From Nitrospinota bacterium (GTDB taxonomy: Bacteria; Nitrospinota_A; UBA7883; JACRGQ01): a stretch of 64,000 bases of DNA. The notes beneath the pieces are model-generated. The model was not told the DNA's origin and made no database searches. It saw only the letters and a program-made list of their open reading frames with translations. The DNA is taken from assembly GCA_016212275.1 (NCBI GenBank), contig JACRGR010000067.1, forward strand, positions 1-64,000, in the 5' to 3' direction. Made by a program: the position numbers and the translations under genes. Shown piece by piece: positions 4,522-21,188 of the stretch; position 1 is the first letter of the stretch, and each line of letters opens with the position of its first letter.

Positions 4522-4998
4522 ATGGGAATGGATACATTGATGAGCATCGTGATCTTCTTCCACGTCATCGCCGCCACCATGTTCGCCATGACCCTTATCA
4601 TCATGCAACTCGTGGTCAGCCCCGCGCTGGCAAAAATACCGGGCGGCCCCGAAAAGGAAGCGGCCTCGGCCGTCATCCAGAACCGCTGGCACCCGATAGT
4701 GGATACCGTCATTATCATTTTGGACATTACCGGGCTGATCCTGTTGCTCACCCGCTGGCACCTCATCGGCACCAACATCATCCTGCACGTCAAGGTGACG
4801 TTCGGCATCATCGCCCTTTTGTGCGCCAACCTGCTCCACTTTTACTACCGGGGATACAAGCGTAAACTGAAGGCGCAAGGGAATGTGGAACGGCTTGCGG
4901 CCATCAACCGCCTCACCGAGATATTAGAGAAAACTGCCTTAATTACAGGCGTTTTAGCGTTCATTTCGGGAATCACCTTCAACCACTCCCCTTTTTGA
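4522..4998 (+). CDS. Small integral membrane protein of unknown function, four predicted helices
   Basis: A 158-residue hydrophobic protein with predicted helices near residues 5-28, 58-80, 85-105 and 135-155. Histidines sit at the ends of helices (HVIAA near residue 14, ILHVKV near 89, LLHFYYR near 105), a pattern seen in CopD-like and other haem- or metal-binding small membrane proteins, but I do not recognise the exact family. It is divergent from copA across a 185-bp gap, so a copper link is only suggested by position. The start is uncertain: ATG 4522 and in-frame ATG 4528 both follow a TATAGT hexamer (4514-4519) so closely that a leaderless transcript beginning at the second ATG is possible. 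Confidence 0.7.
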   Translation: MGMDTLMSIVIFFHVIAATMFAMTLIIMQLVVSPALAKIPGGPEKEAASAVIQNRWHPIVDTVIIILDITGLILLLTRWHLIGTNIILHVKVTFGIIALLCANLLHFYYRGYKRKLKAQGNVERLAAINRLTEILEKTALITGVLAFISGITFNHSPF

Positions 4999-5007
4999 AT
5001 TAGGGAA

Positions 5008-5077
5008 CCACGGATAGACACCGATAAACACGGATGATGGGGCACTGCAATCGGTGTCCATCCGTGTGCATCCGTGG
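5008..5077. repeat. Palindromic CCACGGAT/ATCCGTGG intergenic repeat
   Basis: A 70-bp element with ends CCACGGAT (5008-5015) and ATCCGTGG (5070-5077). Inside, CACCGAT pairs with ATCGGTG and ACACGGAT pairs with ATCCGTGT, so the unit can fold into one long imperfect hairpin. It sits between the membrane-protein gene and the pilin cluster. Similar cacggat/ccgtgg dispersed repeats occur in many environmental bacterial genomes; function is unknown. Confidence 0.7.
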
Positions 5078-5148
5078 GTGAATTCATACCCCGCTATAGC
5101 AAAAGTCTTGAATGTTTTTGTCATAATGTGGCACAATATAAAATTGCA

Positions 5149-5592
5149 ATGGGAGATATAAGGGGCAACCGCGGGTTCACCACCATCGAGTTGATCATCG
5201 TTATCGTACTGATGGGGATTTTAGCCGTCGCGGTCATACCCAAGATGAATGTGGACAGCACCGCCGCACCCGCCACCGCCGATCTGGTGGCTTCCGACAT
5301 CCTCTACACACAGATGGCCGCCATGAGCCAGCACGTCCGGATGTCCATCACCATGACTTCCGGCTCGGCGACGTATAACTATGCGGTCAATGCCACCACC
5401 GGGCTTGGCGAGGCCCGCAACCTCGCGGACATAAAATCAACCGCCTCGATAAGCGTAGGCCAGGTACTGACGTTCAACACGCTCGGCGAGCCGGAACTGA
5501 TCACCGCCCCCATAACAATCACCATAACCGACGGCACAACCACGAAATCGCTCACCGTCCAGCCGTACACCGGAAAGGTGACCATTTTATGA
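5149..5592 (+). CDS. Prepilin-like protein (GspH/FimT type), first gene of the pilin cluster
   Basis: A 147-residue class III signal protein. The leader MGDIRGNRG is followed by FTTIELIIVIVLMGILAV, with Glu at mature position 5 and a hydrophobic helix, so a prepilin peptidase should cut after Gly and methylate Phe. The C-terminal domain is short and beta-rich with a Thr-rich end, like minor pseudopilins. I start it at ATG 5149 because only this leaves a normal leader length; the open frame extends upstream to 5074. No Shine-Dalgarno precedes 5149, and a TATAAA hexamer (5137-5142) lies 6 nt before it. The stop overlaps the next gene's ATG (ATGA at 5589), suggesting translational coupling. Likely a minor subunit of the secretion or pilus apparatus encoded downstream. 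Confidence 0.75.
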   Translation: MGDIRGNRGFTTIELIIVIVLMGILAVAVIPKMNVDSTAAPATADLVASDILYTQMAAMSQHVRMSITMTSGSATYNYAVNATTGLGEARNLADIKSTASISVGQVLTFNTLGEPELITAPITITITDGTTTKSLTVQPYTGKVTIL

Positions 5593-6122
5593 AGAGCTTT
5601 TTTGGTAGGACAGGAAATTTTGCCTGTCTTGGTGCGCGCAAGCGCGAAAGCAAGGGGGACCTTAACAATGACAGACAGGATTGTCTGTCCCACCAAAACG
5701 GGCATGGACAAAAAGGGTTCACGCTCCTCGAACTGATCATGATCCTTGTGGTCATCGCCATTGTCCTGCCGCTCGCGCTCATGCCCTTCACGGAGTCCGT
5801 GAAAGGGATCGGCAATCCCACGCTCGCCACCAACATCGCCGCCGAAGCGCGAAGCGCCATGGAAATCGAGCTCGCCGCGGTGGACGCGGCATTCCCCGCC
5901 ACGGCCACATACACCAAACCGACGGTCACCAAAACCGTGCTCGACGTTAGCTATTCCACCACCATCTCAGGCCAAGTGGGAAACATGGCGGCGGGCACCA
6001 CCACGTTCACCCAGGCCGCCGGCGGGAACTATGTGATAGTCACCGTCACCACCACCGCGACCAAGGGGGGTAGCACCGCCGGAACCTACACCTTTAACGC
6101 GATCAAGGCGAAGAACTTTTAG
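5589..6122 (+). CDS. Prepilin-like protein with an abnormally long leader containing a palindromic repeat
   Basis: A 177-residue prepilin. The processing site QKG^FTLLE is at residues 41-48, followed by the hydrophobic helix IMILVVIAIVLPLALM and a Thr/Ala-rich beta domain. Leaders of this class usually have 5-25 residues; here it is 43. Residues about 5-37 are encoded by a 98-bp palindromic repeat (5601-5698) of the kind otherwise found between genes. The ATG overlaps the stop of the upstream pilin gene (ATGA), which supports this start; no in-frame ATG, GTG or TTG occurs between the repeat and the processing site. The ATG at 5704 is one base out of frame. Probably still a minor pseudopilin if the peptidase tolerates the leader; a damaged gene is the alternative. 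Confidence 0.7.
   Translation: MKSFFGRTGNFACLGARKRESKGDLNNDRQDCLSHQNGHGQKGFTLLELIMILVVIAIVLPLALMPFTESVKGIGNPTLATNIAAEARSAMEIELAAVDAAFPATATYTKPTVTKTVLDVSYSTTISGQVGNMAAGTTTFTQAAGGNYVIVTVTTTATKGGSTAGTYTFNAIKAKNF
5601..5698. repeat. Palindromic GACAGG/CCTGTC repeat inside a prepilin leader
   Basis: The outer arms TTTGGTaGGACAG (5601-5613) and CTGTCCcACCAAA (5685-5697) are inverted. Nested hairpins GACAGG...CCTGTC (5609-5628) and GACAG...CTGTC near 5670-5688 make a double stem-loop unit. The repeat is entirely within the open frame of the prepilin gene starting at 5589. Related units occur at 7908, 16916, 51203 and 60964. Confidence 0.8.
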
Positions 6123-6124
6123 CC

Positions 6125-6637
6125 ATGAAAAACGAAAAAGGTTTTACGCTTATCGAGATTATCATGGTAATTTCGATACTAGGCGTTCTATCCCTCATCT
6201 CCTTCGCGTTCCTCGGCAGGACCGCCGATACCTACCAGATGGCGAGTTCACAGGGCAAAATGAACGGCGAACTGTGGGTGGCCACTGAGCGGATGGTGCG
6301 TGAACTGCAATATACCAACGCCTCCGGCAACATTACCGTCCCCGCATTGGGCGGCACCGGCAGTACCCTTACCTTCACTAAACCGGCCTGCGCCATTTGC
6401 CAGGATACATCTACCGCAGTCTCTTATACATTAACCGGCACCCAAATCCTGCGCACCACCGCAAAGATGGCCAACCAGGTCGTGGCTGACGGCATTAGCG
6501 CGTTCACCGTTGCCCGGACGGCACAAAACGTTGTAACCATTAGCATTACCAAGGCCGACAGCTTCAGCAACAGCATGACGATGACCGAAAGCGTGTACCC
6601 GCATCCGTCGGCAAATCTGAGCGAAGACATTAAGTAG
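6125..6637 (+). CDS. Prepilin-like protein (PilW/GspJ type)
   Basis: A 170-residue prepilin with a compact leader MKNEKG and mature start FTLIEIIMVISILGVLSLISF, including Glu5. The segment after the helix (MNGELWVATERMVRELQ) resembles the start of the globular domain in PilW/GspJ-type minor pseudopilins. A CAIC pair near residue 89 could form a local disulfide after export. It begins 3 bp after the preceding stop and belongs to the same three-gene pilin run. No clear ribosome-binding site is visible, so translation is probably coupled to the upstream gene. Expected location is the inner-membrane pseudopilus tip or minor pilus complex. Confidence 0.75.
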   Translation: MKNEKGFTLIEIIMVISILGVLSLISFAFLGRTADTYQMASSQGKMNGELWVATERMVRELQYTNASGNITVPALGGTGSTLTFTKPACAICQDTSTAVSYTLTGTQILRTTAKMANQVVADGISAFTVARTAQNVVTISITKADSFSNSMTMTESVYPHPSANLSEDIK

Positions 6638-6683: not shown

Positions 6684-7847
6684 ATGAAGTTCACGGATCG
6701 AATAACTAACCAGAGAGGGGTAGCTTTGATCGCCGTCATCTTCATCCTCGTCGCTTTGGGCGGTCTTGGCGTGACCGTTTCGAAGCTCTCCCAAAACCAG
6801 GCAAAGCAGGCGTCCAGCGCTGTTGGCGTGCAGGATTCCTACTATGCCGCGCAAAGCGGGCTTGAATGGGCCTTCCAGCAGGTGACGGACAACACCGGCA
6901 CCGCGGGGTACACCGCGGCAACCGGCTATTCCGCGCTTGTGGGCAACCGCACTTTGCCGAACGGAGACACATTCACCATTGCTTACACCGCGCCAAATAT
7001 CTCTTCCACCGCGAAGAAAGGGAATGACGAACGCCAGCTGGTCTTGGCCAGCTTCGACACGCTCGTCCCGCAGGTTCCCGGTGGCGGGGGGGGCGGAGGG
7101 ACCGGGCCTAGCTCCACCTGTGCCACATCGCAAGGCGACGGGAAAGGGGTTGACCTCTTTACCCAGTATGTTGCCGCGGGAAACCGCATAGATGGCGTAA
7201 CCGGTGGGCAAAGCGGCATTACGCCGGACAATTTCTCGATACCCACCTTTCCTACCGCAACATATAATAACCAAACCTTCGGATCGACCACCTCGCTCAG
7301 CCCAAACACTCCGTCCGCAGATAATCCGGAGCTGTATTACGCCGACCTGCAGGTGAACAATAACGTGTCGCTTACCCTGAATGGACCGACCGGCGTGGGC
7401 AAGTACCTGACGGTGTATGTGAAGGGTGATTTCGACCTGAAGGGAAACTCCACCCTCAACATTAACGGAAACGTCCGGTTTGTTGTCGGCGTGAGTGGTA
7501 CGACCAAGGACATCAAGGTCAATGGCGCCACCGTCAACATTACCAACGGCGCGCTCTTCATGATGGCCTCCGGCGAATTCAAGGCGGAGAACAGCTTCAA
7601 GGTCAACTCCGGCGCCGGCTCGCTTTCGGATAACCTGCTGGTGATGACCCAGAAGGAAATAAAGTTCGAAAACAACGGTTCGGCCAAGGGCGGCTTCTAT
7701 TCCATGGATGAAGTGAAAATTGAAAACAACCCCACCATTACCGGCGCGATGGTCGGTAAAAGCAAGGTGGAGGCCGAGAATAACCCGACTATCACCTGGG
7801 ATAGCAACGCCGCTAAAAACGTCACCGGCAACATCAAGACCTGCTGA
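6684..7847 (+). CDS. PilX/GspK-like pseudopilin with C-terminal beta-helix-like domain (tandem copy 1)
   Basis: A 387-residue protein. The N-terminus NQRG^VALIAVIFILVALGGLGVTV is a prepilin-type helix without Glu5, as in PilX and GspK. DSYYAAQSGLEWA (about residues 52-64) is the conserved PilX N-terminal region. A glycine-rich linker (about 133-140) leads into repeated short beta-strands (LTVYVKGDFDL, STLNINGNVRF, GALFMMASGEFKAEN, KEIKFENNG), typical of the beta-helical DUF7305-like domain. Only two cysteines are present, one just after the linker and one as the final residue. AAGGGG precedes ATG 6684. A strong rho-independent terminator follows at 7865. I infer a surface or tip component assembled by the adjacent secretion/pilus machinery. 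Confidence 0.75.
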   Translation: MKFTDRITNQRGVALIAVIFILVALGGLGVTVSKLSQNQAKQASSAVGVQDSYYAAQSGLEWAFQQVTDNTGTAGYTAATGYSALVGNRTLPNGDTFTIAYTAPNISSTAKKGNDERQLVLASFDTLVPQVPGGGGGGGTGPSSTCATSQGDGKGVDLFTQYVAAGNRIDGVTGGQSGITPDNFSIPTFPTATYNNQTFGSTTSLSPNTPSADNPELYYADLQVNNNVSLTLNGPTGVGKYLTVYVKGDFDLKGNSTLNINGNVRFVVGVSGTTKDIKVNGATVNITNGALFMMASGEFKAENSFKVNSGAGSLSDNLLVMTQKEIKFENNGSAKGGFYSMDEVKIENNPTITGAMVGKSKVEAENNPTITWDSNAAKNVTGNIKTC

Positions 7848-7864
7848 CCTTTCAAGCTCTATAC

Positions 7865-7894
7865 GGGGATGGCGTTCACCGCCATCCCCTTTTT
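7865..7894 (+). terminator. Rho-independent terminator after tandem copy 1
   Basis: A perfect 10-bp stem GGGGATGGCG / CGCCATCCCC with a 5-nt loop is followed immediately by TTTTT, 18 bp after the upstream stop codon. The terminator after copy 2 has nearly the same stem. Confidence 0.85.
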
Positions 7895-7907
7895 CCTTCC
7901 CCTTTTC

Positions 7908-8009
7908 TTTGGTAGGTACAGGCACTTTTGCCTGTACATTAGCGAGGATTGCCAACCTTCTTGGGTGCTGACGCACCCAACGACAGGCAGGAGTGCCTGT
8001 CGCCACCAT
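7908..8009. repeat. Palindromic GGTAGG...ACAGGC / GCCTGT...CCACC repeat
   Basis: This intergenic unit opens with TTTGGTAGGTACAGGC and closes with GCCTGTCGCCACCA. Nested hairpins are GTACAGGC...GCCTGTAC, TTGGGTGC...GCACCCAA and GACAGGCA...TGCCTGTC. It has the same architecture as the repeat at 5601 and fills most of the 263-bp gap between tandem copies 1 and 2. Confidence 0.8.
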
Positions 8010-8110
8010 TCATGAATGCATCAGTGAAAAATCGGTCGCAAGGGAGTAGAATATTAATCAAGACCTGAAGGCAATTCGATCAACGTGGGTTCTTAACAAC
8101 GAGGTTTGCC

Positions 8111-9271
8111 ATGGACATCAGGCGGCACCTGAAAGGTCAAAAAGGCTTTGCGCTTCTCGCGGTGATCTTCATCCTCGTCGCCATGGCCGGCCTTGGCGTG
8201 ACCGTTTCGAAGCTTGTTCAAAACCAGGCACGGCAGGCATCCAGCGCGGTTGGCGTGCAGGATTCCTACTATGCCTCCCAGAGCGGGCTTGAATGGGCCG
8301 TGCAACAGGCTACGGACAACGGCTATACCGCGCCCTACTCGCAGATAGCGGGCGCACACACCTTGCCGAATGGCGATACCTTCACCATCGCTTACGACGC
8401 GTTGACCGACAAGCTCTCCTCAACGGCCAACAAGGGAAATGACCAGCGGATGCTGGTGCTTGCGGCATTTTCCACCATTCCGAGCGGTGGCGGCGGCGGA
8501 ACCGACCCGAACGAAAGTTGCTCCGTGGCGGCGGATGGCAACGTGACGGGAACGGATCTTTTTGCCACCCGCGTGGCTTCCGCCGATGAAATTGACGGCA
8601 GTATTCCGGGAAGCGCGGAAAACATTCACCCCAAGACGTTCTCCTCCATGCCCTCCTTTCCGGCAGGCGTGTCATATCCAAACCGTACTTACAGTGGCGG
8701 GACCACCTCGCTCACCAGTTCCACCCCCACCGTCAACAACCCCGAACTGTATTACAACGACCTGAAACTTGAGGACCACGGCACCATGAACGTCACCGGC
8801 CCCACCGGCGTGGGCAACTACCTGACGGTTTATGTGAAAGGGGATTTCAAAGTAAGGGACAGTTCCACGCTCAATGTCACTGGAAATGTGCGGTTCGTCG
8901 TTGGCACCAGCAGGAGGGACGACGAAAACGTCATAATGCAAGGCGCCACCGTGAACATCGCCACCGGCGGCAACCTGCTCCTCGTGGCTTCCGGCAGGTT
9001 CAAGGCGGAAAACAATTTCGCGGTGAATTCCGGCGCCGGCTCCAGCGCCAGCAACCTGCTCATCATGACGATGGGCGATATAAAATTCGAGAACAACGGC
9101 ACGATCAAAGGCGGCTTGTATTCACTGGATGATATTAAGATCGACAACAGCCCCACCATCACCGGCGCCATGGTCGCGGTGGACAAGATAGACAAAGAAC
9201 ATGCCAGTTCGGTCATCAACTACGACAACACCGCCGGACAAAGCGTTGTCAATAACATTAAGACCTGCTGA
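8111..9271 (+). CDS. PilX/GspK-like pseudopilin with C-terminal beta-helix-like domain (tandem copy 2)
   Basis: A 386-residue paralogue of the upstream gene. Leader QKG precedes FALLAVIFILVAMAGLGVTV, again without Glu5. The block around SSAVGVQDSYYASQSGLEWA is almost identical to copy 1, and the two genes share near-identical DNA there, pointing to recent duplication or gene conversion. The Gly-rich linker near residue 135 is followed by Cys, and the protein ends in KTC, so the two-cysteine pattern is kept. The C-terminal strands (YLTVYVKGDFKV, GNVRFVV, ASGRFKAENNF, GDIKFENNG) diverge moderately. GAGG lies 7 nt before ATG 8111. Its own terminator follows, so it may form a separate transcript from an upstream promoter that I could not identify. 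Confidence 0.75.
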   Translation: MDIRRHLKGQKGFALLAVIFILVAMAGLGVTVSKLVQNQARQASSAVGVQDSYYASQSGLEWAVQQATDNGYTAPYSQIAGAHTLPNGDTFTIAYDALTDKLSSTANKGNDQRMLVLAAFSTIPSGGGGGTDPNESCSVAADGNVTGTDLFATRVASADEIDGSIPGSAENIHPKTFSSMPSFPAGVSYPNRTYSGGTTSLTSSTPTVNNPELYYNDLKLEDHGTMNVTGPTGVGNYLTVYVKGDFKVRDSSTLNVTGNVRFVVGTSRRDDENVIMQGATVNIATGGNLLLVASGRFKAENNFAVNSGAGSSASNLLIMTMGDIKFENNGTIKGGLYSLDDIKIDNSPTITGAMVAVDKIDKEHASSVINYDNTAGQSVVNNIKTC

Positions 9272-9288
9272 CCCTCCCTTGAGTTTGG

Positions 9289-9321
9289 CCGGGATGGCGT
9301 TCTTCGCCATCCCGGTTCTTT
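9289..9321 (+). terminator. Rho-independent terminator after tandem copy 2
   Basis: An 11-bp stem CCGGGATGGCG / CGCCATCCCGG with a 5-nt loop is followed by TTCTTT. It lies 17 bp after the stop codon and shares the GGGATGGCG core with the terminator at 7865, consistent with duplication of gene plus terminator. Confidence 0.85.
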
Positions 9322-9412
9322 CTGCATCCCAATAATGGTAATATAAATACCAATGCGCCCATCCGGGCCAACAAAGAGTTTGAAGTTGTTGCCAATTATA
9401 CAAGGGGGGACA

Positions 9413-10543
9413 ATGAGGCATCCATTCTTCCTGAAAAAACGCCTGAACAACAAAGGCATCGTTTTCATTGCCATCCTTTTCATCCTTCTCGCGCTTGCCG
9501 CGCTCGGCATCGCCTACGTCAAGTTCACTACCAACGACCAGTCGTCGGCGGCCAAAGGGCTGGAAACGCAGGGAGCCTACTTCGCCGCCCAAAGCGGGGC
9601 CGAATGGGCCGTGCAACAGGCAAAGGACAACAACTACCAGACCCCGTACACGCAGATAACCACCCCGCCGCAACATGCGCTAAATAACGGCGAACAGTTC
9701 CTTCTGGCGTATGACCCTGCCAGCGACACACTCAGCGTCACCGGTAAAAAAGGGGGGGCCGAACGCGCCCTTACCGTTGCCCCTTTCACGCAGATGGTGG
9801 CGGGCGGCGGCCTGCCGAATACCCCCTGCCCCGTGGCGAACGGTCCCGCGGGCATCAGCTGGCTTTTCTCGCAATATGTCGCCTCCGCCGGAAAAAGCGT
9901 TACCGGCGTGGCCGGAACCACCGCCACTGGCATAACTCCCCAGGCGGTTGCCCTGCCCGCGTTCCCGCAAGGCACCTACAATAATTTAAAAGTGACTTCC
10001 GCCACCTCCCTCACCGGCACATCCCCCAACGCCAACACCCCCGCGCTGTACTACAAGGACATTACCGTCACCTCCGGCAACATCCTCACGCTACACGGCC
10101 CCACTGGCGTGGGCCACTACCTCACGCTGTATTTGGAGGGGGATTTGAAAGTGGAATCAAAAGCCGCCATCAGCATCACCGGCAATGTGCGTATAGTGGC
10201 GCAAAAGGACGTCAAGTTCTCCGACCAGTCCGGCGCCACTGTTGCCAGCGATGCCACCCTGCTCCTGATGGCCGGGAAGGACGTTTCCATCAAGCAAAAC
10301 GCGGGGATCAATTCCGGCGGGAATTCCTACAACATGCTCATACTGGCGAAAAAAGACATTAAAGTGGATTCAGGCTCCACCTACCGTGGCGGCCTTTTTG
10401 GCAATGCCGACGTGACCGTGGACCGCAACGCCACGGTGGCGGGGGCGATCGTCGCCGGAAAAGACGTTTCGGCGGCTGGATCGGAGATTCAGCACAACCC
10501 GGAAGCGGGAAAATCGGTGCTCGATTCCATCCCCGCCTGCTAG
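9413..10543 (+). CDS. PilX/GspK-like pseudopilin with C-terminal beta-helix-like domain (tandem copy 3)
   Basis: A 376-residue, more diverged member of the tandem family. It starts at ATG 9413 behind a GGGGGG ribosome-binding run; the open frame extends to 9353 without support. The N-terminal helix is KG^IVFIAILFILLALAALGIAYV, lacking Glu5. QGAYFAAQSGAEWAVQQA matches the PilX region of copies 1 and 2. The C-terminal half repeats beta-strand units (YLTLYLEGDLKVES, KDVKFSDQSG, KDIKVDSGSTYRGG). Two cysteines only: NTPC after the Gly-rich linker and the final residue. No terminator is visible before gspC, so this copy may be read through into the type II secretion operon. Confidence 0.75.
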   Translation: MRHPFFLKKRLNNKGIVFIAILFILLALAALGIAYVKFTTNDQSSAAKGLETQGAYFAAQSGAEWAVQQAKDNNYQTPYTQITTPPQHALNNGEQFLLAYDPASDTLSVTGKKGGAERALTVAPFTQMVAGGGLPNTPCPVANGPAGISWLFSQYVASAGKSVTGVAGTTATGITPQAVALPAFPQGTYNNLKVTSATSLTGTSPNANTPALYYKDITVTSGNILTLHGPTGVGHYLTLYLEGDLKVESKAAISITGNVRIVAQKDVKFSDQSGATVASDATLLLMAGKDVSIKQNAGINSGGNSYNMLILAKKDIKVDSGSTYRGGLFGNADVTVDRNATVAGAIVAGKDVSAAGSEIQHNPEAGKSVLDSIPAC

Positions 10544-10674
10544 CGGGCGCGGCCCGCCGCGAATGTCGCGTACAATCCCAATCAGAGGCTTGTCGCATTT
10601 CTCCGCGTTCCTGCCTCATTTCTTTCATTAAATAACCTGAAATTCCAAACACCTGTCCGTCAAACTAACTAGTG

Positions 10675-11562
10675 ATGAAATCCGCGATTTTATGGCCATT
10701 CAAGCAAGGCAAGGGTATCCTATTGTTAAACTTTGCGTTATTTTCAGGTCTCGCCTATTTCAGCCTTCTCTGGATAAGCCAGATATTTTCCGCCGCCACC
10801 CTGTCTGTCCCACCTTACACGCCACCAAAGCCCGATACCGCCGGCATGCAAATGCAAACACAGGCGGATTACTCCATACTCACCCGCAAGAACCTCTTTA
10901 ACCCGGGCGCCAGGTTTTCCCCGATGGCCACCGGGGAAATTGTCCCCTGCACCCTGCCGCTGAGACTGGTGGGGACGATAATCACGGAAAACAAAAAGAA
11001 CAATATCGCCATCATTGAAAACATCAACGACAAACAGCAAGACCTCTACCATATCAACGACCAGATAGCGGGGAGTGCCGTTATCGCGCAGGTGAGCCGG
11101 TTCGAGGTGATCCTGAACAACAACGGGCGACTGGAACGGCTGGCGATAGATTTCGGCGAGGGGGCGCTGGAGGCCATGCTCTCTTCACCCTCCCCCGCGA
11201 CGGGAAGGCCGGCAGGCGCCCAGGTGGCCATGCTCAACGAAGGTCAATACCTGATGGACCGGCGCTTTTTTGAATCGCAAAAGGCGAATATGAACGACAT
11301 GATGACTCAGATACGCGCCATCCCGAATATGGCCCCGGACGGCTCCATAAACGGGTTCCAGCTTTTCGAGATCGTGAAAGACAGCATGTACGACCGGATA
11401 GGACTCAAGAACCAGGATGTGCTCCAGCGCGTGAACGGCCAGCCGCTCAACTCGGTGGAAACAGGGCTGGACCTTTTCAACGCCTTAAAGAACGACAACC
11501 ACTTCGTCCTCGACGTCGTGCGGAACAAAGAACGGAAAACCATAAAAATCGACATTCAGTGA
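10675..11562 (+). CDS. gspC: Type II secretion inner-membrane protein GspC with PDZ domain
   Basis: A 295-residue protein with one N-terminal membrane helix (about residues 15-38), the periplasmic homology region (ILTRKNLFNPG, then LPLRLVGTII near 100) and a C-terminal PDZ domain (GFQLFEIVKDSMYDRIGLKNQDVLQRVNGQPL). GspC links the inner-membrane platform to the secretin GspD and helps choose substrates. The start could be GTG 10672 or ATG 10675; I chose ATG. It overlaps the gspD open frame by a few bases, though the preferred gspD start lies 8 bp downstream. First gene of the canonical gspC-N order. Confidence 0.85.
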   Translation: MKSAILWPFKQGKGILLLNFALFSGLAYFSLLWISQIFSAATLSVPPYTPPKPDTAGMQMQTQADYSILTRKNLFNPGARFSPMATGEIVPCTLPLRLVGTIITENKKNNIAIIENINDKQQDLYHINDQIAGSAVIAQVSRFEVILNNNGRLERLAIDFGEGALEAMLSSPSPATGRPAGAQVAMLNEGQYLMDRRFFESQKANMNDMMTQIRAIPNMAPDGSINGFQLFEIVKDSMYDRIGLKNQDVLQRVNGQPLNSVETGLDLFNALKNDNHFVLDVVRNKERKTIKIDIQ

Positions 11563-11570
11563 AGGGAACC

Positions 11571-13676
11571 ATGATTAAAAAACCTGCCCTGGCGCTTATC
11601 GCCACACTGCTCCTGTTCACCGCCTCCCCCGCCCGCTCCGCCGATGAAGGGACCATCTCGATGAACTTCGCGAACGCGGACATCACCATGGTGATCAAGT
11701 ACATCTCCGAAATGACCGGCAGGAACTTCGTGGTGAACGACAAAGTGCAGGGGAAAGTGACCATCCTTTCGCCCAAAAAGGTGACGCGCGACGAGGCGTA
11801 CAAGGTGTTCGAGTCCATACTCTCCGTGTACGGGTTTTCCGCCGTCCCCTCCGGCAACGTCGTCAAGATCGTTCCGGTGAACGACGCGCGCCAATTGGGC
11901 GGCACGATGGGCGCCCTGCTCACCGGAGAAATGCGCGACCAGATGATCACCCAGCTCATCCCGCTCAAGTTCGTAACCGCGGACAACATGGTGAACGCCC
12001 TGCGCCCGCTCATCCCGCCCACCAGCTACATCGCCTCGTACCAGCAATCGAACACGCTCATCATCGTGGACCTGGCCTCCAACCTCGAGAGGATCAACAC
12101 CATCATCGGCAAGCTGGACGTTGAGGGACGCGAGACCGGCATCACGGTGGCGCAATTGAAGCACGCTTCCGCACGCGACATCGCGGCGAAGATAACGAAC
12201 GTCACCGGGAAAGACCCGGCGCGGGGGGGCGCGGTGGACCCGAACGCGAACGTACTGCCGGACGACCGGCTGAACGCCATCATCATCGTGGGGAACGAAC
12301 TATACACCAACAAGGTGAAGAACATCATCGGGCAACTCGATATTGAGTCGCCGCCCGGCAGGCAGGAGATCAACGTGGTCTACCTGAGCAACGCGAACGC
12401 CGAAGACCTGGCGAAGGTGGTGAACCAGATACTCCAGGCGGAACAGAAAAAGACGCTCCAGGGGCCGCAGGCGCAGGAGGCGGTCTTCGTCACGGCGGAC
12501 AAGCCGACAAACGCCATCATCGTCACCGCGTCGCCGGAGCAATTCGTGAACGTCAAGCGCGTCATCGAGAAGCTGGACATCCCCCGCAGGCAAGTATTCG
12601 TTGAAGCGCTGATATTCGAGGTGCGCGAGGACAAGGCGAAAAAGTTCGGCGTCGAGTGGCGCACCACCTCCAACTTCAACCAAGGCGGCGTGCAGGGGAT
12701 CGGCGGAACGAACTTCGGCACCATCAACCAGGTGGCGGCGAACCCGATCACCGGCATGGCTGGCGCGGGAATGGTGGTGGGCGTGGTTGACGGCACGATA
12801 GACGTGGGAGGCACGCAGTACGCCAACGTGGGCGGCCTTATCTCCGCGCTCCAGACCGATACCGACGTGAACATCCTCTCCACCCCGAACATCCTGACCA
12901 CCGACAACGAGGAAGCCAAGATATTCGTGGGGCAAAACGTGCCGTTCCTGAAAAGCTCCGCCCAGACCACCGGGGGCACTCCGGTCGTGAATGTTGACCG
13001 GCAGGACATCGGCACCGTGATGAAGATCACGCCGCAGATAAACGAGAACAACCAGGTGCGCCTTAAAATTTACCAGGAAACATCGAGCATCAGCCCCACG
13101 CAACTCGACAAGGCGCAGGACATCATCACGTTCAAGCGCACCGCCGAGACCGTGGTGGTGGTGCGCGACAAGCAGAACATCATCATCGGCGGACTCATCA
13201 GCGAAAACCTGCAGGACGTGGAAAACAAGGTGCCGCTCCTCGGTTCCATCCCGCTTTTGGGCTGGCTGTTCAAGAGCAAATCCAAATCGGTGGTCAAAAC
13301 AAACCTGCTCATCTTCCTTACGCCGCACATCATCAACAATGTGGAAGACATGAAGCGGGTAACGGACTCGAAATTGGGAATGATGGATAAACTCAGCGGG
13401 CCGGAAATGAAAGAAAAAATAAAGGAACGCGCGCCCACACCCCCCGCCCCCGAACAAAAAAGCGAGGACAAGAAGCCGGAGATGGCCCAACCGCCCGCGC
13501 CGGAGCTTTCCGCCCCTGTTGAGAAACAACCGGAAATGGCGCCGCTCCCGGCGGAACCCGCTCCTCAAATCGAGCCGCCCCCGACGCCGCCGGCGAAACC
13601 GCAAAGCGGCGTTCCCCTGCCCGTCCGTCCGCGCAGTGTGAACGCCACGCAAAACGAGATAGTTCTCTTCAGGTAG
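11571..13676 (+). CDS. gspD: Type II secretion outer-membrane secretin GspD
   Basis: A 701-residue secretin that forms the outer-membrane channel. A signal peptide (about 1-23, ending PARSA) precedes the N0 domain (ISMNFANADITMVIKYISEM) and N1-N3 repeats (LIIVDLASNLERINTIIGKLD, AIIIVGNELYTNKVKNIIGQLD, AIIVTASPEQFVNVKRVIEKLD). The secretin core carries FVEALIFEVRED, VNILSTPNILTTDNEEAKIFVGQNVPF and VPLLGSIPLLGWLF. The tail after about residue 610 is Pro/Glu/Lys-rich, low-complexity and longer than usual. ATG 11571 is chosen because GAAGGGAACC precedes it; an in-frame ATG at 11559 would overlap gspC. Confidence 0.95.
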   Translation: MIKKPALALIATLLLFTASPARSADEGTISMNFANADITMVIKYISEMTGRNFVVNDKVQGKVTILSPKKVTRDEAYKVFESILSVYGFSAVPSGNVVKIVPVNDARQLGGTMGALLTGEMRDQMITQLIPLKFVTADNMVNALRPLIPPTSYIASYQQSNTLIIVDLASNLERINTIIGKLDVEGRETGITVAQLKHASARDIAAKITNVTGKDPARGGAVDPNANVLPDDRLNAIIIVGNELYTNKVKNIIGQLDIESPPGRQEINVVYLSNANAEDLAKVVNQILQAEQKKTLQGPQAQEAVFVTADKPTNAIIVTASPEQFVNVKRVIEKLDIPRRQVFVEALIFEVREDKAKKFGVEWRTTSNFNQGGVQGIGGTNFGTINQVAANPITGMAGAGMVVGVVDGTIDVGGTQYANVGGLISALQTDTDVNILSTPNILTTDNEEAKIFVGQNVPFLKSSAQTTGGTPVVNVDRQDIGTVMKITPQINENNQVRLKIYQETSSISPTQLDKAQDIITFKRTAETVVVVRDKQNIIIGGLISENLQDVENKVPLLGSIPLLGWLFKSKSKSVVKTNLLIFLTPHIINNVEDMKRVTDSKLGMMDKLSGPEMKEKIKERAPTPPAPEQKSEDKKPEMAQPPAPELSAPVEKQPEMAPLPAEPAPQIEPPPTPPAKPQSGVPLPVRPRSVNATQNEIVLFR

Positions 13677-13677
13677 C

Positions 13678-15246
13678 ATGAACGGACTGCGCGAACTGAG
13701 CGAAAAGCTGGAATACCGTTACACCGAGGCCGTGCCGCCCGTGGAAACCGCGGCGGAACTGGTGCGGCGCGTGCCGATAGCCTTCGCCCGCAAAAACGAG
13801 ATCGCCCCCGTGGCGGTGGAGGATGGGCGGCTCGTTGTGCTCACCTCGCGTCCGCTGGATCACCACGCCATCGCCGACTTGCGCGGGATGTTCGGCCTGC
13901 CCGTTTCCGTCACCGTGGCGGAACCGAAGGTGGTCACCGAGTTCATCAACCGCGCTTACGAGAACACGGCCGGTTCGGCGGAAGAGGTGCTGGGCGAAGT
14001 GGAACCGCAAAACCTCGAATCCATCGCCAGCGAACTGGAAGGGGCAACCGATATTCTCGATACGGACGAGGAAGCGCCCATCGTGCGCCTGCTGAATTCC
14101 ATGCTCCAACAGGCGATAAAGGAAAAGGCGAGCGACGTGCATATCGAAGTATTTTCCGATTCGCTCTCCGTGCGTATGCGGGTGGACGGCATTTTGTATT
14201 CCGTCCTCAAGCCGCCGCGGCGGATACACCCGCAACTTATTTCCCGCGTGAAGATCATGGCGGGAATGGACATCGCCGAAAAGCGGTTGCCGCAGGACGG
14301 GCGCATCTCCCTGCGCGCCGCCGGGCGCGAGATAGACGTGCGCGTTTCCACCATCCCCACCACGTTCGGCGAGCGGGTGGTCATGCGCCTGCTGGACAAA
14401 AGCCGGAACCTGCTCATGCTCGACCAGCTGGGCATGGACCCGGAGATGCTCAAGACGATCCGCCACGGCATCGAATTGCCGAACGGCATCATCCTCGTCA
14501 CCGGCCCCACCGGGAGCGGTAAAACGACCACGCTGTACGCCGCGCTGGCGCAGGTGGATACGGCGCGCAAAAACGTGATAACGGTCGAGGACCCGGTGGA
14601 GTACCAGATACGCGGCATCGGGCAGATGCAGGTGAACCCCGCCATCGGCCTGAACTTCGCCGACGGCCTGCGGTCCATCCTCCGGCAGGACCCGGACATC
14701 ATCATGATCGGCGAAATACGCGATCAGGAGACCGCGCGGATAGCGGTGCAGGCGTCGCTCACCGGGCACCTGGTCTTTTCCACGCTCCACACGAATGACA
14801 GCGCCGGAGCGCTCACCCGGCTGGTGGACATCGGCATCGAGCCGTTCCTCATCGCCTCGTCGCTCGTGGGGGTGCTGGCCCAGCGGTTGGTACGCACTCT
14901 ATGCCCGAAGTGCAAGCGGCTCTCCGCGATTGATCCGGAAGAGATAGCGCGGCTTGGCTCCGACGCACGCTCGGCGAACCTCCCCACCCGCCTGCACAAA
15001 GCCGCGGGGTGCGATGAGTGCATGAACTCCGGCTACCGGGGACGTAGCGGCATTTACGAATACCTGCAAGTAACGGATTCCATCCGGTCCCTCATCGTGA
15101 AAGGGGCCGACGCCAAGCGGATACGCCAACAAGGGGTGAGCGAGGGCATGAAAACCCTGCGTCAGGACGGACTGATGAGGGCCGCGCGCGGCCAAACCTC
15201 GCTGGACGAGGTGCTCCGCGTGACCGAAGAAGGCGAGGCGGTGTGA
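13678..15246 (+). CDS. gspE: Type II secretion assembly ATPase GspE
   Basis: A 522-residue cytoplasmic secretion ATPase that powers pseudopilus assembly. Walker A GPTGSGKTT is at 276-284, the Asp box region VEDPVEYQ at 303-310, Walker B IIMIGEIRD at 341-349 and the His box HLVFSTLHTND at 364-374. The zinc-binding CM domain has two CxxC pairs (Cys409/412 and Cys445/448), as in GspE and PilB. The N1E-like region occupies roughly the first 100 residues. The ATG lies 1 base after the gspD stop. The stop overlaps the start region of gspF (GTGATG). Confidence 0.95.
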   Translation: MNGLRELSEKLEYRYTEAVPPVETAAELVRRVPIAFARKNEIAPVAVEDGRLVVLTSRPLDHHAIADLRGMFGLPVSVTVAEPKVVTEFINRAYENTAGSAEEVLGEVEPQNLESIASELEGATDILDTDEEAPIVRLLNSMLQQAIKEKASDVHIEVFSDSLSVRMRVDGILYSVLKPPRRIHPQLISRVKIMAGMDIAEKRLPQDGRISLRAAGREIDVRVSTIPTTFGERVVMRLLDKSRNLLMLDQLGMDPEMLKTIRHGIELPNGIILVTGPTGSGKTTTLYAALAQVDTARKNVITVEDPVEYQIRGIGQMQVNPAIGLNFADGLRSILRQDPDIIMIGEIRDQETARIAVQASLTGHLVFSTLHTNDSAGALTRLVDIGIEPFLIASSLVGVLAQRLVRTLCPKCKRLSAIDPEEIARLGSDARSANLPTRLHKAAGCDECMNSGYRGRSGIYEYLQVTDSIRSLIVKGADAKRIRQQGVSEGMKTLRQDGLMRAARGQTSLDEVLRVTEEGEAV

Positions 15247-16460
15247 TGCTGTACGCGTTTGAAGGCGTGGATAGCGCGGGAAAGCCGGTAAGCGGCTCGA
15301 TAGACGCCGCGGGCGCGCGCGAGGCGCGCACCAAACTGCGGTCCGGCAATATCTTCGTCACGAGCCTCGCGGAAGAAGAAAAAGCCGAGAAGGCCGGGCG
15401 CCGGCTTTTTCCGTTCCTTGCCGGGCGTGTTTCCCAAAAGGAGATGACTTCATTCATGCGGCAGGTGGCTTCGCTCGTCTCAGCGGGCATACCGCTGATG
15501 GAAACGCTGGAGGCCGCCCAGAAGCAGTGCGAATCGGCGCACCTGAAGAAGGTGCTAAACGAGCTGAAGAACAATGTGCGGCAGGGGGAAACGCTGGCGG
15601 ACGCCATGCAAAAGGCCTCGGCCCAATTCGACCCGCTCACCGTGGCTATGGTGCGGGCGGGAGAGACCGGCGGGCATTTGGCCGACGTGCTGAACCAGGT
15701 GGCGGACCTGAAGGAGAACACCCTGCGCCGCGACAACGCCCTGCAAAGCGCGATGATATATCCGGTGGTCATGGCGGTCATCGGCATGGGGGTCATCATC
15801 TTCCTGCTGGGGTATGTGGTGCCGAAGATCACGGTCATCTTCGAGGATATGGGGCACACGCTCCCGCTGGCGACAAAGATACTCATTTTCGTCACTGGCA
15901 TTATCGTGGACTACTGGTTCGTGCTTGGCCTCCTGTTGGTGGGGGCGCTCACAGGGGCGGGCCGCTACATTAAAACGGAAAAAGGGAAAGCGAATCTCGA
16001 CCGCCTGCTCCTCCGTCCGCCGGTGGTGGGGCCCCTGCTACGCGCGGCCATCCTTGCCCGGTGGAGCCACGCCGCTTCGGCGCTTTTGCAGTCCGGCGTG
16101 CCGCTTTTGAAAACACTGCACCTTACCGCCGGTATCGCGCAGAATACGGTGTACGCCGAGGCCATCGAAAAGGCCGCCGCGCAAATACGCGAGGGCGCGG
16201 GCATCGCCGAATCGCTGGCCCCTTCCGCCCTCTTCCCGCCCGTGGCGCTCCAGATGGTGGCGGCGGGGGAAAAAAGCGGCCAATCGGCAAAACTGCTGAT
16301 GCAGGTGGCGCGCGACCAGGGGGCGGAACTGGAAAACCGCATCACGGTTCTCATGTCGCTCGTACAGCCCGCGTTGATCATTGTCATGGGGCTTATTGTC
16401 GGGTTTATAGTAATGGCGATACTTCTGCCGATCTTCGAGATCAGCCAACTTATAGGATGA
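15246..16460 (+). CDS. gspF: Type II secretion inner-membrane platform protein GspF
   Basis: A 404-residue polytopic protein with two repeated GspF/PilC domains. The first starts around FMRQVASLVSAGIPLMETLE and the second around WSHAASALLQSGVPLLKTL. Predicted membrane helices lie near residues 170-195, 215-237 and 372-400. It anchors the GspE ATPase and acts as the rotor-like platform for pseudopilin insertion. ATG 15246 overlaps the last base of the gspE stop; GTG 15243 is an alternative. Length and order are normal for the family. Confidence 0.95.
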   Translation: MLYAFEGVDSAGKPVSGSIDAAGAREARTKLRSGNIFVTSLAEEEKAEKAGRRLFPFLAGRVSQKEMTSFMRQVASLVSAGIPLMETLEAAQKQCESAHLKKVLNELKNNVRQGETLADAMQKASAQFDPLTVAMVRAGETGGHLADVLNQVADLKENTLRRDNALQSAMIYPVVMAVIGMGVIIFLLGYVVPKITVIFEDMGHTLPLATKILIFVTGIIVDYWFVLGLLLVGALTGAGRYIKTEKGKANLDRLLLRPPVVGPLLRAAILARWSHAASALLQSGVPLLKTLHLTAGIAQNTVYAEAIEKAAAQIREGAGIAESLAPSALFPPVALQMVAAGEKSGQSAKLLMQVARDQGAELENRITVLMSLVQPALIIVMGLIVGFIVMAILLPIFEISQLIG

Positions 16461-16473
16461 AAGGAGGCGCGTG

Positions 16474-16905
16474 ATGATTAGGAAAAACGAACGGGGTTTT
16501 ACGTTGATAGAAATAATGGTGGTGGTGGTGATATTGGCCCTATTGGCCGGCATCATCATCCCCAAGATCGTAAGCAGGCCGGAAGAGGCGCGCAGGGCCA
16601 AGGCCGCTATCCAGATCAAGGAAATGGAGGCCGCGCTCAGCCTCTTCAAGATCGACAACGGGTTCTACCCCTCCACTGAACAGGGGCTGGAAGCGCTGGT
16701 CACGAAACCGGCTTCCGGCGAAATACCGAAACACTGGAAAGAAGACGGCTACCTGAAAAAGGCGCCGAAAGACCCGTGGGACAGGGAATATGTGTACTTA
16801 AGCCCCGGCGAGCATGGCGACTTCGACCTGATCTCGTACGGGCCGGACGGTGAAGAAGGCGGCGAGGGAAGAAATGCCGACATCGAAAGCTGGAACATTG
16901 AATAA
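16474..16905 (+). CDS. gspG: Major pseudopilin GspG
   Basis: A 143-residue major pseudopilin. Leader MIRKNERG precedes FTLIEIMVVVVILALLAGIIIPKIV, including Glu5. The C-terminal domain shows the GspG signature: DNGFYPSTEQGLEALV, then LKKAPKDPWDREYVYLSPGEHGDFDLISYGPDG, which in known GspG proteins forms a calcium site with Asp residues in this loop. A strong GGAGG lies 6 nt before ATG 16474. The 3' end overlaps the likely gspH start at 16874 by about 30 bp. Confidence 0.95.
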   Translation: MIRKNERGFTLIEIMVVVVILALLAGIIIPKIVSRPEEARRAKAAIQIKEMEAALSLFKIDNGFYPSTEQGLEALVTKPASGEIPKHWKEDGYLKKAPKDPWDREYVYLSPGEHGDFDLISYGPDGEEGGEGRNADIESWNIE

Positions 16906-17473
16906 CCACTCTTACGGTGGGACAGGCGGTCTTGCCTGTGCTTGCCGCCATAGCCGGCAAGCACAGGAGGGGTTCACGCTCACCGAGGTGATCGTGGTGG
17001 TGTTCATCATCAGCCTGTTCGCCGCGTTCACCATCCCGCGGCTGGCGGACGTGGGAGAACTGAAGCTCAACAGGACCGCCGCGCACATCGGGCGCACCAT
17101 CACCTATCTCTACTCCGAGGCGGTGGCCCACCATCAGGTGGTGCGCCTGACCTTCGACCTTGCCAGCGGCAAATACTACCCCGCATCATTAAGCGCCAAG
17201 GGGGAATTCGAGCCGACCCGGTTCCCGCTCTTCGCCTCTGGCAAGATTAGCGAGGGCATTACCGTCAAACGGTTTGTGACAATGTTCGGCGGCTCCTTTT
17301 CCGGCACACAAGCGTATGTGCATCTTTTGCCGGAAGGGTTCGCCGAAAAGGCGCTCATTATTCTGGACGACGGCCACGGGCGGACGGTATCCCTCTTGGT
17401 GGATCCGCTCACGGGCCGGGTGAAAACCGAACGCGGGGAAGCGCATATCGAATTCGCGGAGCAGGGAGCATGA
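16874..17473 (+). CDS. gspH: Minor pseudopilin GspH with a repeat-derived leader extension
   Basis: A GspH-type minor pseudopilin. The processing site is EG^FTLTEVIVVVFIISLFAAFTI, Glu5 present, followed by a GspH/FimT beta domain (HIGRTITYLYSEAVAHHQVVRLTFDL). The leader is unusual: 33 residues from ATG 16874 (preceded by GAGGGAAG), or 25 from a TTG overlapping the gspG stop. Roughly 17 of these residues are encoded by a palindromic GACAGG/CCTGT repeat at 16916-16967, so the repeat is part of the gene. An upstream ATG at 16850 also keeps the frame. It overlaps gspI by 4 bp (ATGA). Confidence 0.85.
   Translation: MPTSKAGTLNNHSYGGTGGLACACRHSRQAQEGFTLTEVIVVVFIISLFAAFTIPRLADVGELKLNRTAAHIGRTITYLYSEAVAHHQVVRLTFDLASGKYYPASLSAKGEFEPTRFPLFASGKISEGITVKRFVTMFGGSFSGTQAYVHLLPEGFAEKALIILDDGHGRTVSLLVDPLTGRVKTERGEAHIEFAEQGA
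16916..16967. repeat. Palindromic GACAGG/CCTGT repeat inside the gspH leader
   Basis: GGTGGGACAGGC begins the unit, ACAGGC...GCCTGT forms a first hairpin, and CTGTGCTTGCCG (16936-16947) pairs perfectly with CGGCAAGCACAG (16955-16966) around a 7-nt loop. It belongs to the same family as the repeats at 5601 and 7908, and lies between the start region and the prepilin cleavage site of gspH. Confidence 0.8.
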
Positions 17474-17820
17474 AGGCAAACGACGGGTTCACGCTGATCG
17501 AGGTGGCGGTGAGTTTGGCCATCATCTCCATCTCGCTCGTAACGCTCCTGGCGGCCTTCAACCGCGCCTACGCCGCCTCCGCCGGAAACGCGGTGCTTAC
17601 CAATGCCACCATGCTGGCGCAGGAAAAACTCGCTTCGGCCACGATTGAGGAAACAGCGGCTGAAGAACCAAAATGGGAAGAGGATGTGCGCTTTCCGCGT
17701 TACCGGTTCAAGAAAACGGTGGAACAGACGCCGTTCCGGGATGTGACCAAGGTGTCGCTGGCGGTGGAATATGACAAGAAACCGGCAACCCGCATGGAAA
17801 CCTACCTGATAAAGCCATGA
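17470..17820 (+). CDS. gspI: Minor pseudopilin GspI
   Basis: A 116-residue minor pseudopilin with leader MKANDG and mature start FTLIEVAVSLAIISISLVTLL. The segment NATMLAQEKLASA is the conserved GspI region in which the alpha-helix passes into the small C-terminal domain. GspI is the core of the GspI-J-K tip complex that starts pseudopilus assembly. ATGA overlaps link it to gspH and gspJ on either side, so the three genes are translationally coupled. Confidence 0.9.
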   Translation: MKANDGFTLIEVAVSLAIISISLVTLLAAFNRAYAASAGNAVLTNATMLAQEKLASATIEETAAEEPKWEEDVRFPRYRFKKTVEQTPFRDVTKVSLAVEYDKKPATRMETYLIKP

Positions 17821-18434
17821 AAACCATACGAACAACGCATGGGTTCACGCTGATCGAAATACTGGTGGCGGTGTTCATTTTGGGCATCATCTTCAGCTTC
17901 ATTTTCGGCGCGCTCACCTCGTCCCTCGCCTCGGCGAAGGAGGCCACCGCGCGGATGGACATCGGGCATACCGGACGGTTCATAGCGGGAAAAATGGCGA
18001 GCGACATCGCCTCCGCCAGTTTGTTGCCGATGAGCGGCAAAGGCCGTTTGTGGGGCCGCCATTTCATGAAAAACGGCAAGCGGCGCGACGAAATTCATTT
18101 CACCGCCTTTTCGCGGACCTATTTCACGGGCCGGCCTCAAATAGATCAATCCGAGATCGGCTACTATTTCCGCATCGCCAAAAACGGCGAAGACGCCCTT
18201 ATGCGGCGCGAGGCGGACGTGATCGAGCGCCCCGTGGACCAAGGGGGCGAATCGCTGGAAATATCCCCCGCAGTTGAAGAACTCGCCATCCGCTACCAAC
18301 TGGACGACAAATGGGTGGACGAATGGGACTCGGAATCCGTGCAGGTACTCCCGAAAGCCGTTTCGGTGGAATGCACTCTCGCCGACGGCAAGCACAAATA
18401 TCTGTTCACCGCGATAGCGAGGCCCGCAATATGA
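17817..18434 (+). CDS. gspJ: Minor pseudopilin GspJ
   Basis: A 205-residue pseudopilin with leader MKTIRTTHG and mature start FTLIEILVAVFILGIIFSFIF, Glu5 present. The conserved GspJ region after the helix (ARMDIGHTGRFIAGKMASDIASA) and later DEIHFTAFSRTYFTG are visible. It partners GspI and GspK in the pseudopilus tip. Length fits the family. It overlaps both gspI and gspK by 4 bp. Confidence 0.9.
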   Translation: MKTIRTTHGFTLIEILVAVFILGIIFSFIFGALTSSLASAKEATARMDIGHTGRFIAGKMASDIASASLLPMSGKGRLWGRHFMKNGKRRDEIHFTAFSRTYFTGRPQIDQSEIGYYFRIAKNGEDALMRREADVIERPVDQGGESLEISPAVEELAIRYQLDDKWVDEWDSESVQVLPKAVSVECTLADGKHKYLFTAIARPAI

Positions 18435-19354
18435 TACGAAATCAGGAAGGCGCCGCGCTGGTGGTGACATTGCTGGTGGTTTCCATCATGACGATCACCG
18501 TCACCGAATTCCTGTACGCCACATGGGTGGACCGGAGCCTGACGGTGAATTTCAGCGACACCGCGAAATCATCCTATGCGTTGCGCGCGGGTGTGGAAGC
18601 GGGGCGCGCGATACTGCGCGAAGACTACCGCGAAGACGCCAAAAGAGGCCTGTTTGCGGATACCCTGCGCGACTTCTGGGCGCAACCCGCCCTGCCGATA
18701 CCGATCGACGACACTTACCTGTTCGTCTCCATCGCGGATGAATCGTCCAAGATTGACCTCAACCGGCTCATCACCCAGGGGGGATACCCGGACGAGAAAT
18801 GGATAAACACATTCCGCCGCCTCCTGCGCGATCTGGGAGAAGATGAGGATATCGCCACATATGTGCTCGATTGGATAGACGAGAACAGCGAGGGTCCCGC
18901 GGAAGACGGCTACTATCAATCGTCCTCCCTTCCCTACCGGTGCAAAAACGCCCGGCTGGACTCGGTGGAGGAACTCAAGCGTGTGCGCGGCATTACTCCC
19001 GCCGTGTTCGCCAAACTGAGGAAGTTCGTCACCATCCGCTCGGCGGGATGGGTGAACATAAACACCGCCGCGGCGGAAGTGCTGATGGCGCTGGATGACC
19101 GTATCTCGAAGGGAACCGCCGACGCGGTGATCAAGGCGCGCAACGAGATGCCCTTCAAGCGAAAAGAGGACATAAAGAACGTGGGCGGATTCGAGGATAT
19201 TTTCCCCCGTATCGGTTCCATGATAGACGTATCCAGCAATTCGTTTTCCATCGCCGCCACCATCACGGTGGGCGAGGTGAACCGCAAGGCGGAGGCGCTG
19301 GTCACGGAGCGCAACGCTGGCGGCGCCACCCTTCTCTATTACCGGGAGTACTGA
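18431..19354 (+). CDS. gspK: Minor pseudopilin GspK
   Basis: A 307-residue tip pseudopilin. The N-terminal segment NQEG^AALVVTLLVVSIMTITV lacks Glu5, the hallmark of GspK. The large globular domain includes SSKIDLNRLI, VLDWIDENSE and two helix-hairpin-helix-like stretches (RVRGITPAVFAKLRKFVTI and INTAAAEVLMALD), as in SAM-like GspK domains. I start it at ATG 18431, overlapping the gspJ stop; the open frame extends upstream to 18311 inside gspJ. GspK caps the pseudopilus and limits its length. Confidence 0.9.
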   Translation: MIRNQEGAALVVTLLVVSIMTITVTEFLYATWVDRSLTVNFSDTAKSSYALRAGVEAGRAILREDYREDAKRGLFADTLRDFWAQPALPIPIDDTYLFVSIADESSKIDLNRLITQGGYPDEKWINTFRRLLRDLGEDEDIATYVLDWIDENSEGPAEDGYYQSSSLPYRCKNARLDSVEELKRVRGITPAVFAKLRKFVTIRSAGWVNINTAAAEVLMALDDRISKGTADAVIKARNEMPFKRKEDIKNVGGFEDIFPRIGSMIDVSSNSFSIAATITVGEVNRKAEALVTERNAGGATLLYYREY

Positions 19355-20688: not shown

Positions 20689-21188
20689 TCCTTCCTTCCC
20701 AAAACCGGAGGAAGCTCGCGCTCTTCGCCGTAGCGGGCCTGTTGCTGGCGTGGGCGGCGGTCGGCGGCCTTTTTTTGCCGCTTCAGGAGGAATCGGCGAA
20801 GCTGGACCGCAAGATACGCGAAGCCCGGCGCGACTTACAGCAGATGAGGGAAATGGCGGACCGGCACATATCGCTTACCGCCTCGCTCCCCCAGGGGATG
20901 CGCACCGACTCCGCGGGGGCGCCGTTGCTGGCCGAGGCGGAAACCATTTCCCGCAGATTGGGAATCGAGAAAAACATCAAACAGATGTCCCCCGCCCCCT
21001 CCACGCGCGGACGCGGCGAGGAATTGACCGTCACCATTTCCAATATCCCTTACCCGGTATTGGTGGATTTCCTGCAAAGCTTGTATGAGTCGCCTTCCGC
21101 GATAAGCGTGCGCCGTGCGGCCATCAGCGCCTCGTTTGCCAACCGCGCGCAGGTGAACGCGGAGTTGGCTCTGGAAAAGGGGTTTTAA
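20685..21188 (+). CDS. gspM: Type II secretion protein GspM
   Basis: A 167-residue bitopic protein. A membrane helix at about residues 11-31 is followed by a coiled coil (EESAKLDRKIREARRDLQQM) and a periplasmic ferredoxin-like domain with LLAEAETISRRLGIEKNIKQM and VDFLQSLYESPSAISVRRAAIS. This matches GspM, which binds GspL in the inner-membrane platform. ATGA overlap with gspL indicates coupling; its TAA overlaps the gspN start. A second, more distant copy lies at 52825-53427. Confidence 0.85.
   Translation: MILPSQNRRKLALFAVAGLLLAWAAVGGLFLPLQEESAKLDRKIREARRDLQQMREMADRHISLTASLPQGMRTDSAGAPLLAEAETISRRLGIEKNIKQMSPAPSTRGRGEELTVTISNIPYPVLVDFLQSLYESPSAISVRRAAISASFANRAQVNAELALEKGF

Follow-up and report, generated by a model that had tools for sequence, protein, structure and literature searches.

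What a bacterium contacts, binds or takes up is determined by the tips of its filaments, and few tip subunits outside model species have been structurally explained. According to the available portion of a review (PMC10191384), the subunit capping the tip complex lacks the glutamate at position 5 (Glu5). The closest described counterpart of the proteins considered here is ComZ of Thermus thermophilus (6QVI), which, in the accessible part of its description (PMC6561018), combines a pilin-like N-terminal domain with a beta-solenoid of the ice-binding type, is encoded beside pilA1-pilA2-pilA3 and is proposed to be a tip pilin. A further point of reference is domain B of the ice-binding protein IBPv (residues 230-445), for which the consulted portion of the structural report gives a disulfide C244-C443 (PMC5673226). 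Here we examine three tandem genes, X1, X2 and X3, in a 64,000-nucleotide stretch (the window; positions 1 to 64,000 of the forward strand of contig JACRGR010000067.1) of a Nitrospinota bacterium (assembly GCA_016212275.1). Their products are probably three alternative tip subunits, each exposing a solenoid clasped by a disulfide between its N- and C-terminal ends.

Cysteine positions in X1, X2 and X3

In the window, three minor pilin genes are followed by X1, X2 and X3 in tandem and then by a type II secretion operon. The features on which the argument turns are the following.

6684-7847, + strand: X1, putative K-type tip pilin with predicted DUF7305 beta-solenoid (translation, profiles, Glu5 check)
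7119-7121, + strand: X1 junction Cys codon (Cys146)
7842-7844, + strand: X1 terminal Cys codon (Cys387)
8111-9271, + strand: X2, putative K-type tip pilin with predicted DUF7305 beta-solenoid (translation, profiles, predicted model, Glu5 check)
8519-8521, + strand: X2 junction Cys codon (Cys137)
9266-9268, + strand: X2 terminal Cys codon (Cys386)
9413-10543, + strand: X3, putative K-type tip pilin with predicted DUF7305 beta-solenoid (translation, profiles, predicted model, Glu5 check; alternative start 9353)
9827-9829, + strand: X3 junction Cys codon (Cys139)
10538-10540, + strand: X3 terminal Cys codon (Cys376)

Each protein begins with a prepilin-like N-terminus and a pilin-like head, which a linker connects to a DUF7305 domain at the C-terminal end. 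A preliminary description had called the proteins PilX-like, a label that proves loose: the PilX_N profile (PF14341) reaches 15.5 bits in X1 (E 0.018) and 11.4 bits in X2 (E 0.33), both below its cut-off of 25.5 bits, and does not match X3, whereas DUF7305 (PF23981) scores 34.7, 41.9 and 41.7 bits in X1, X2 and X3, all above the curated Pfam cut-off of 27 bits. The GspK equivalog NF037980 gave 22.3 and 21.5 bits, in the N-terminal helix region only and below its threshold of 130 bits, and no match in X3. The same description had placed exactly two cysteines in each protein, the first ahead of the C-terminal domain and the second closing the chain, and the translations bear this out. The only cysteines are 146 and 387 in X1 (387 amino acids, ending in KTC), 137 and 386 in X2 (386 amino acids, KTC), and 139 and 376 in X3 (376 amino acids from the ATG at 9413, PAC); the earlier ATG of X3 at 9353 brings no extra cysteine. 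The glycine-rich linker said to precede the junction cysteine is clear in X1 and X2 but not in X3, where it is short and consists of just GGG. Twenty other window genes have 40 cysteines among 6899 residues, a rate at which about 2.2 would be expected per 385 amino acids, and two per protein is unremarkable by itself; what is unusual is their positions, not their number. Since X1, X2 and X3 are paralogues in tandem, with nucleotide identities of 65, 53 and 52%, the pattern in the window counts once, and independent evidence has to come from homologues.

Conservation of the cysteine pair

A homologue is present in eight of the 24 genomes of the window's phylum, counting the genome of the window itself (G000, estimated to be 82.8% complete). 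The solenoid-bearing set comprises nine proteins, three in G000, one in each of G004-G008 and one in G010; an N-terminal fragment in G010 and a protein without solenoid in G009 fall outside it. Both cysteines are kept in all nine, the terminal one being followed in G010 by ten more residues. The homologue in G009 (163 amino acids) ends after the pilin domain and contains no cysteine, and that in G008 (L025, 2426-4204) carries about 190 extra residues between pilin head and solenoid, with its first cysteine still beside the solenoid. The pair therefore accompanies the solenoid and not the pilin. By eye, the G008 insert resembles two fibronectin-III-type repeats. No relatives were recovered from genome_contigs with X2 or with the X1-X3 alignment, nor from plasmids by tblastn with X3.

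In a second phylum, the domain profile matches in 16 of 77 genomes, and 15 of the 17 loci were long enough for alignment (L093 and L099 were excluded as incomplete), giving a joint alignment of 24 proteins, nine from the window's phylum and 15 from the second. The junction cysteine column is occupied in 24/24 and the terminal one in 23/24, the exception (G406b) having its cysteine one column off. These are the only near-universal cysteine columns; the others are lineage-restricted, and the second-phylum proteins have additional conserved cysteines. Just nine columns reach conservation in 22 or more of the 24, and two of them are these. When all cysteines were masked and the proteins realigned, the terminal cysteine still fell within columns 891-893 in 22/24, which makes its homology between the phyla firm. 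Co-conservation of the two holds in that no complete solenoid-bearing homologue among the 24 aligned has only one of them. Judged from these alignments, the pattern exceeds what shared descent of three tandem copies would give.

The possibility that the pair is a hallmark of DUF7305 as a whole was rejected: from 28 distant loci, the 19 whose tail beyond the domain is complete and no longer than 50 residues were counted (nine with longer or open tails were not), and only one of these (L075) has a cysteine in its terminal tail. A literature search on DUF7305 returned nothing, and searches linking minor pilins to disulfides and pilins to ice-binding proteins surfaced ComZ but, among the papers listed, no description of this cysteine pair.

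Predicted fold of the C-terminal domain

AlphaFold2 models were built from an input alignment of only the three window proteins. The model of X2 has a mean predicted local distance difference test score (pLDDT) of 68.5 and a predicted template modelling score (pTM) of 0.60, and that of the X3 domain alone has a pLDDT of 75.1 and a pTM of 0.78. In structural comparison by VIA-align, residues 146-374 of X2 match ice-binding proteins with a best Z of 15.1 (161 residues aligned, root-mean-square deviation 2.8), and the best 25 matches are all ice-binding or antifreeze proteins (Z 13.7-15.1). The predicted X2 model aligns with ComZ (6QVI) across both domains (260 residues, Z 11.3, root-mean-square deviation 11.0). 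The X3 domain likewise finds ice-binding proteins (best Z 14.3), with tapirin 6N2B tied at Z 13.3; tapirins are adhesins that bind cellulose and are associated with type IV pili. A weak sequence-profile match to the ice-binding protein 4NU3 (E 0.012) agrees with this fold; ComZ was absent from the sequence profile search results, and a viral structure library yielded nothing at E 0.001 or better. The C-terminal domain is thus predicted to be a beta-solenoid like those of ice-binding proteins and ComZ, and the beta-helix-like domain of the preliminary description finds support in both models and their structural matches.

Proposed tip position and the filament served

Position 5 of the mature protein is Ala in X1, X2 and X3. 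Glu5 is missing in all 14 X proteins examined and present in all 28 partner pilins examined in the two phyla (that of G010 pilin 2 read by eye). This lack of Glu5 beside Glu5-bearing upstream pilins is the signature of a GspK/PilK cap subunit of a type IV filament, and X1-X3 would accordingly be placed at the filament tip; the tip position proposed earlier is thus supported both by the missing Glu5 and by the ComZ-like architecture. The partner and downstream genes of the window are as follows.

5074-5592, + strand: minor pilin 1 (H-like); N_methyl above cut-off, GspH below cut-off; Glu5 in FTTIE
5589-6122, + strand: minor pilin 2; N_methyl above cut-off; Glu5 in FTLLE
6125-6637, + strand: minor pilin 3 (J-like); N_methyl above cut-off, GspJ match weak; Glu5 in FTLIE
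10672-22048, + strand: type II secretion operon from gspC (starting at 10672) to a gspN-like gene; profile hidden Markov models for GspC, GspD, GspG and GspK

The operon appears to carry its own G, H, I, J and K pseudopilins; beyond the four profile matches, its genes take their names from their sequence and position. Every locus read in the phylum has partner pilins ahead of X. There are three of them in G000, G006, G008 and G009, two could be seen in G004, G007 and G010, and G005, where the contig ends, shows one. In the four loci read in the second phylum, the cassette precedes genes that by eye resemble those for PilM/N/O/P, a secretin and an ExeA-type ATPase. PilT is present. PilY1 was not found in G000, but PilP is missing there too, so this absence may reflect genome incompleteness. 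The idea that the solenoid replaces PilY1 was rejected, as PilY1 is matched in each of the ten further genomes of the window's family. A small membrane protein with a CopD-type look (by eye) is encoded ahead of the pilin cassette at 4522-4998, and similar genes also precede the cassette in G004 (L021, 4996-5475) and G007 (L024, 5129-5710).

The proposed disulfide and its alternatives

The window cysteines sit just before and just after the stretch that matches the ice-binding fold. In that fold, the coil order b1-b6-b5-b4-b3-b2 places the first and last coils next to each other, as stated in the available parts of two reports (PMC7966756, PMC5673226), so that a bond between the two ends would act as a clasp. 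G000 encodes a VKOR-thioredoxin fusion (C71, L082) with the motifs CILC and CSHC, and VKOR was found in 20 of the 24 phylum genomes; the fusion is likely the periplasmic disulfide catalyst that replaces DsbB/DsbA, which supplies the disulfide-forming system anticipated for this genome. We therefore propose the following arrangement. X1-X3 would be alternative minor pilins of the K type (the GspK/PilK/PilX position) that, jointly with the three upstream Glu5-bearing pilins, cap a type IV filament. The solenoid, held after a flexible linker and exposed at the tip, would serve as an adhesive or receptor module. The junction and terminal cysteines would be joined in a single intramolecular disulfide that ties both ends of the solenoid together and that the VKOR-thioredoxin fusion would introduce in the periplasm. 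We infer a mechanical role for this bond, in that the clasp would stop the domain from unzipping from its ends under pulling at the tip or threading through the secretin. Of the closed cap suggested at the outset, co-conservation of the cysteines stands and the IBPv disulfide in the same fold lends it support; the bond itself is a reasonable expectation, tempered by the low confidence of the model at both cysteines.

Several observations weigh against this arrangement. Both cysteines lie at pLDDT <50 in the X2 model. A Foldseek search against PDB found nothing at E 0.001 or better; the fold call rests on VIA-align. In this domain the X2 and X3 models contain short helices only and lack the long alpha-helix seen in true ice-binding proteins. 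With cysteines masked, the junction cysteine falls out of register between the phyla and the linker does not align; its homology between phyla appears to be positional and draws on an alignment that used the cysteine itself. No VKOR was detected in G008. Only in G000 and G008 does the cassette lie next to gspC, and the tip may belong either to the type II secretion machinery or to a type IV pilus. Finally, the homologues in G004-G007 (L021-L024) hold seven cysteines each, including two CC pairs; as seven is an odd number, at least one must be unpaired or bonded elsewhere, possibly to another protein.

This last point bears on an alternative in which the terminal cysteine is bonded to a different protein (one of the partner minor pilins, a tip protein of the PilY1 type or another X subunit), giving a covalent tip complex in place of an internal clasp. 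Besides the odd cysteine number, it would suit the two cysteines in each of the window minor pilins 1-3 and the presence of PilY1 in cassette-bearing relatives. We consider it improbable: the two cysteines of X are present or absent together, as expected of each other's partners, the cysteine counts of the partner pilins vary, falling to zero in G009 pilin 2 and in G315 pilins 1 and 3, and the incomplete genome G000 yielded no PilY1. Equally hard to favour is a reading of the pair as an enlarged disulfide of the pilin D-region, with the solenoid inserted in the C-terminal loop of the pilin and the tail tied back to the pilin head. Many pilin D-loops have a terminal cysteine at the chain end, as X does, but the first cysteine lies on the solenoid side of the linker and remains there despite the G008 insert, and the G009 pilin-only protein has none. 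That the cysteines are inherited ballast or a metal site and form no disulfide accords with the indirect nature of the case for a bond and the low-confidence model, but is the least probable of these readings given their retention across two phyla amid so few conserved columns and the VKOR-thioredoxin oxidase encoded.

Tandem copies and intergenic elements

X1 and X2 share 77% identity in the pilin head and 54% in the solenoid, as expected if the exposed domain diversifies. Two hairpins follow these genes.

7865-7889, + strand: terminator-like hairpin after X1; 10 pairs then TTTTT; -21.3 kcal/mol, z -4.95
9287-9317, + strand: hairpin after X2, its stem almost identical to that of the X1 hairpin; -26.6 kcal/mol, z -4.89

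Terminator-like sites of the kind seen after X1 number 11 against 10.0 expected in shuffles. A palindrome-like 20-mer occurs at 7982-8001, between X1 and X2, and with three mismatches at 5670-5689, at the 5' end of the second pilin frame (0.01 expected); it is possibly a repetitive extragenic palindrome (REP)-like element.

A broader picture is conceivable, though we hold it only tentatively: in a lineage of type IV filament tip subunits found in at least two phyla, a beta-solenoid closed covalently into a ring would serve as an adhesive cap that can be exchanged, the three diverged copies would be alternative tips of one filament, and the disulfide would bypass the solenoid so that pulling force spares it. 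Such tandem copies raise the question of whether one filament can swap its tips. DUF7305, an uncharacterised Pfam domain, gains a predicted fold and a likely position, and it is suggested that pilus tips and an ice-binding protein have both made use of a disulfide that ties the ends of a solenoid.

Comparison with known systems

Like the tip-capping minor pilins GspK, PilK and PilX, X is encoded last after minor pilins, lacks Glu5 and has a large non-pilin insert or extension; it differs from them in its beta-solenoid head domain, in its three tandem copies and in the presence of an ordinary gspK in the downstream operon. Within DUF7305, X1-X3 score above the family cut-off but, unlike 18 of the 19 distant short-tail members, have a terminal cysteine. 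The X models share the triangular solenoid of DUF3494 ice-binding proteins but not their long alpha-helix. IBPv domain B (5UYT), in the consulted part of its report (PMC5673226), offers the nearest likeness for the clasp, a solenoid with adjacent first and last coils and a disulfide from near the domain start to the C-terminal end; it differs in being an ice-binding protein without a pilin domain, in the long alpha-helix along its solenoid and in sequence (12% identity in the aligned part). With ComZ, as far as the available portion of its description goes (PMC6561018), X shares both domains and a cassette beside pilin genes. The ComZ solenoid is inserted between pilin strands, whereas that of X appears to follow the pilin domain after a linker, a domain order that suggests C-terminal fusion, and the available ComZ text contains no mention of a disulfide, unlike our reading of X. 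The architecture of X is close to that of the known ComZ.
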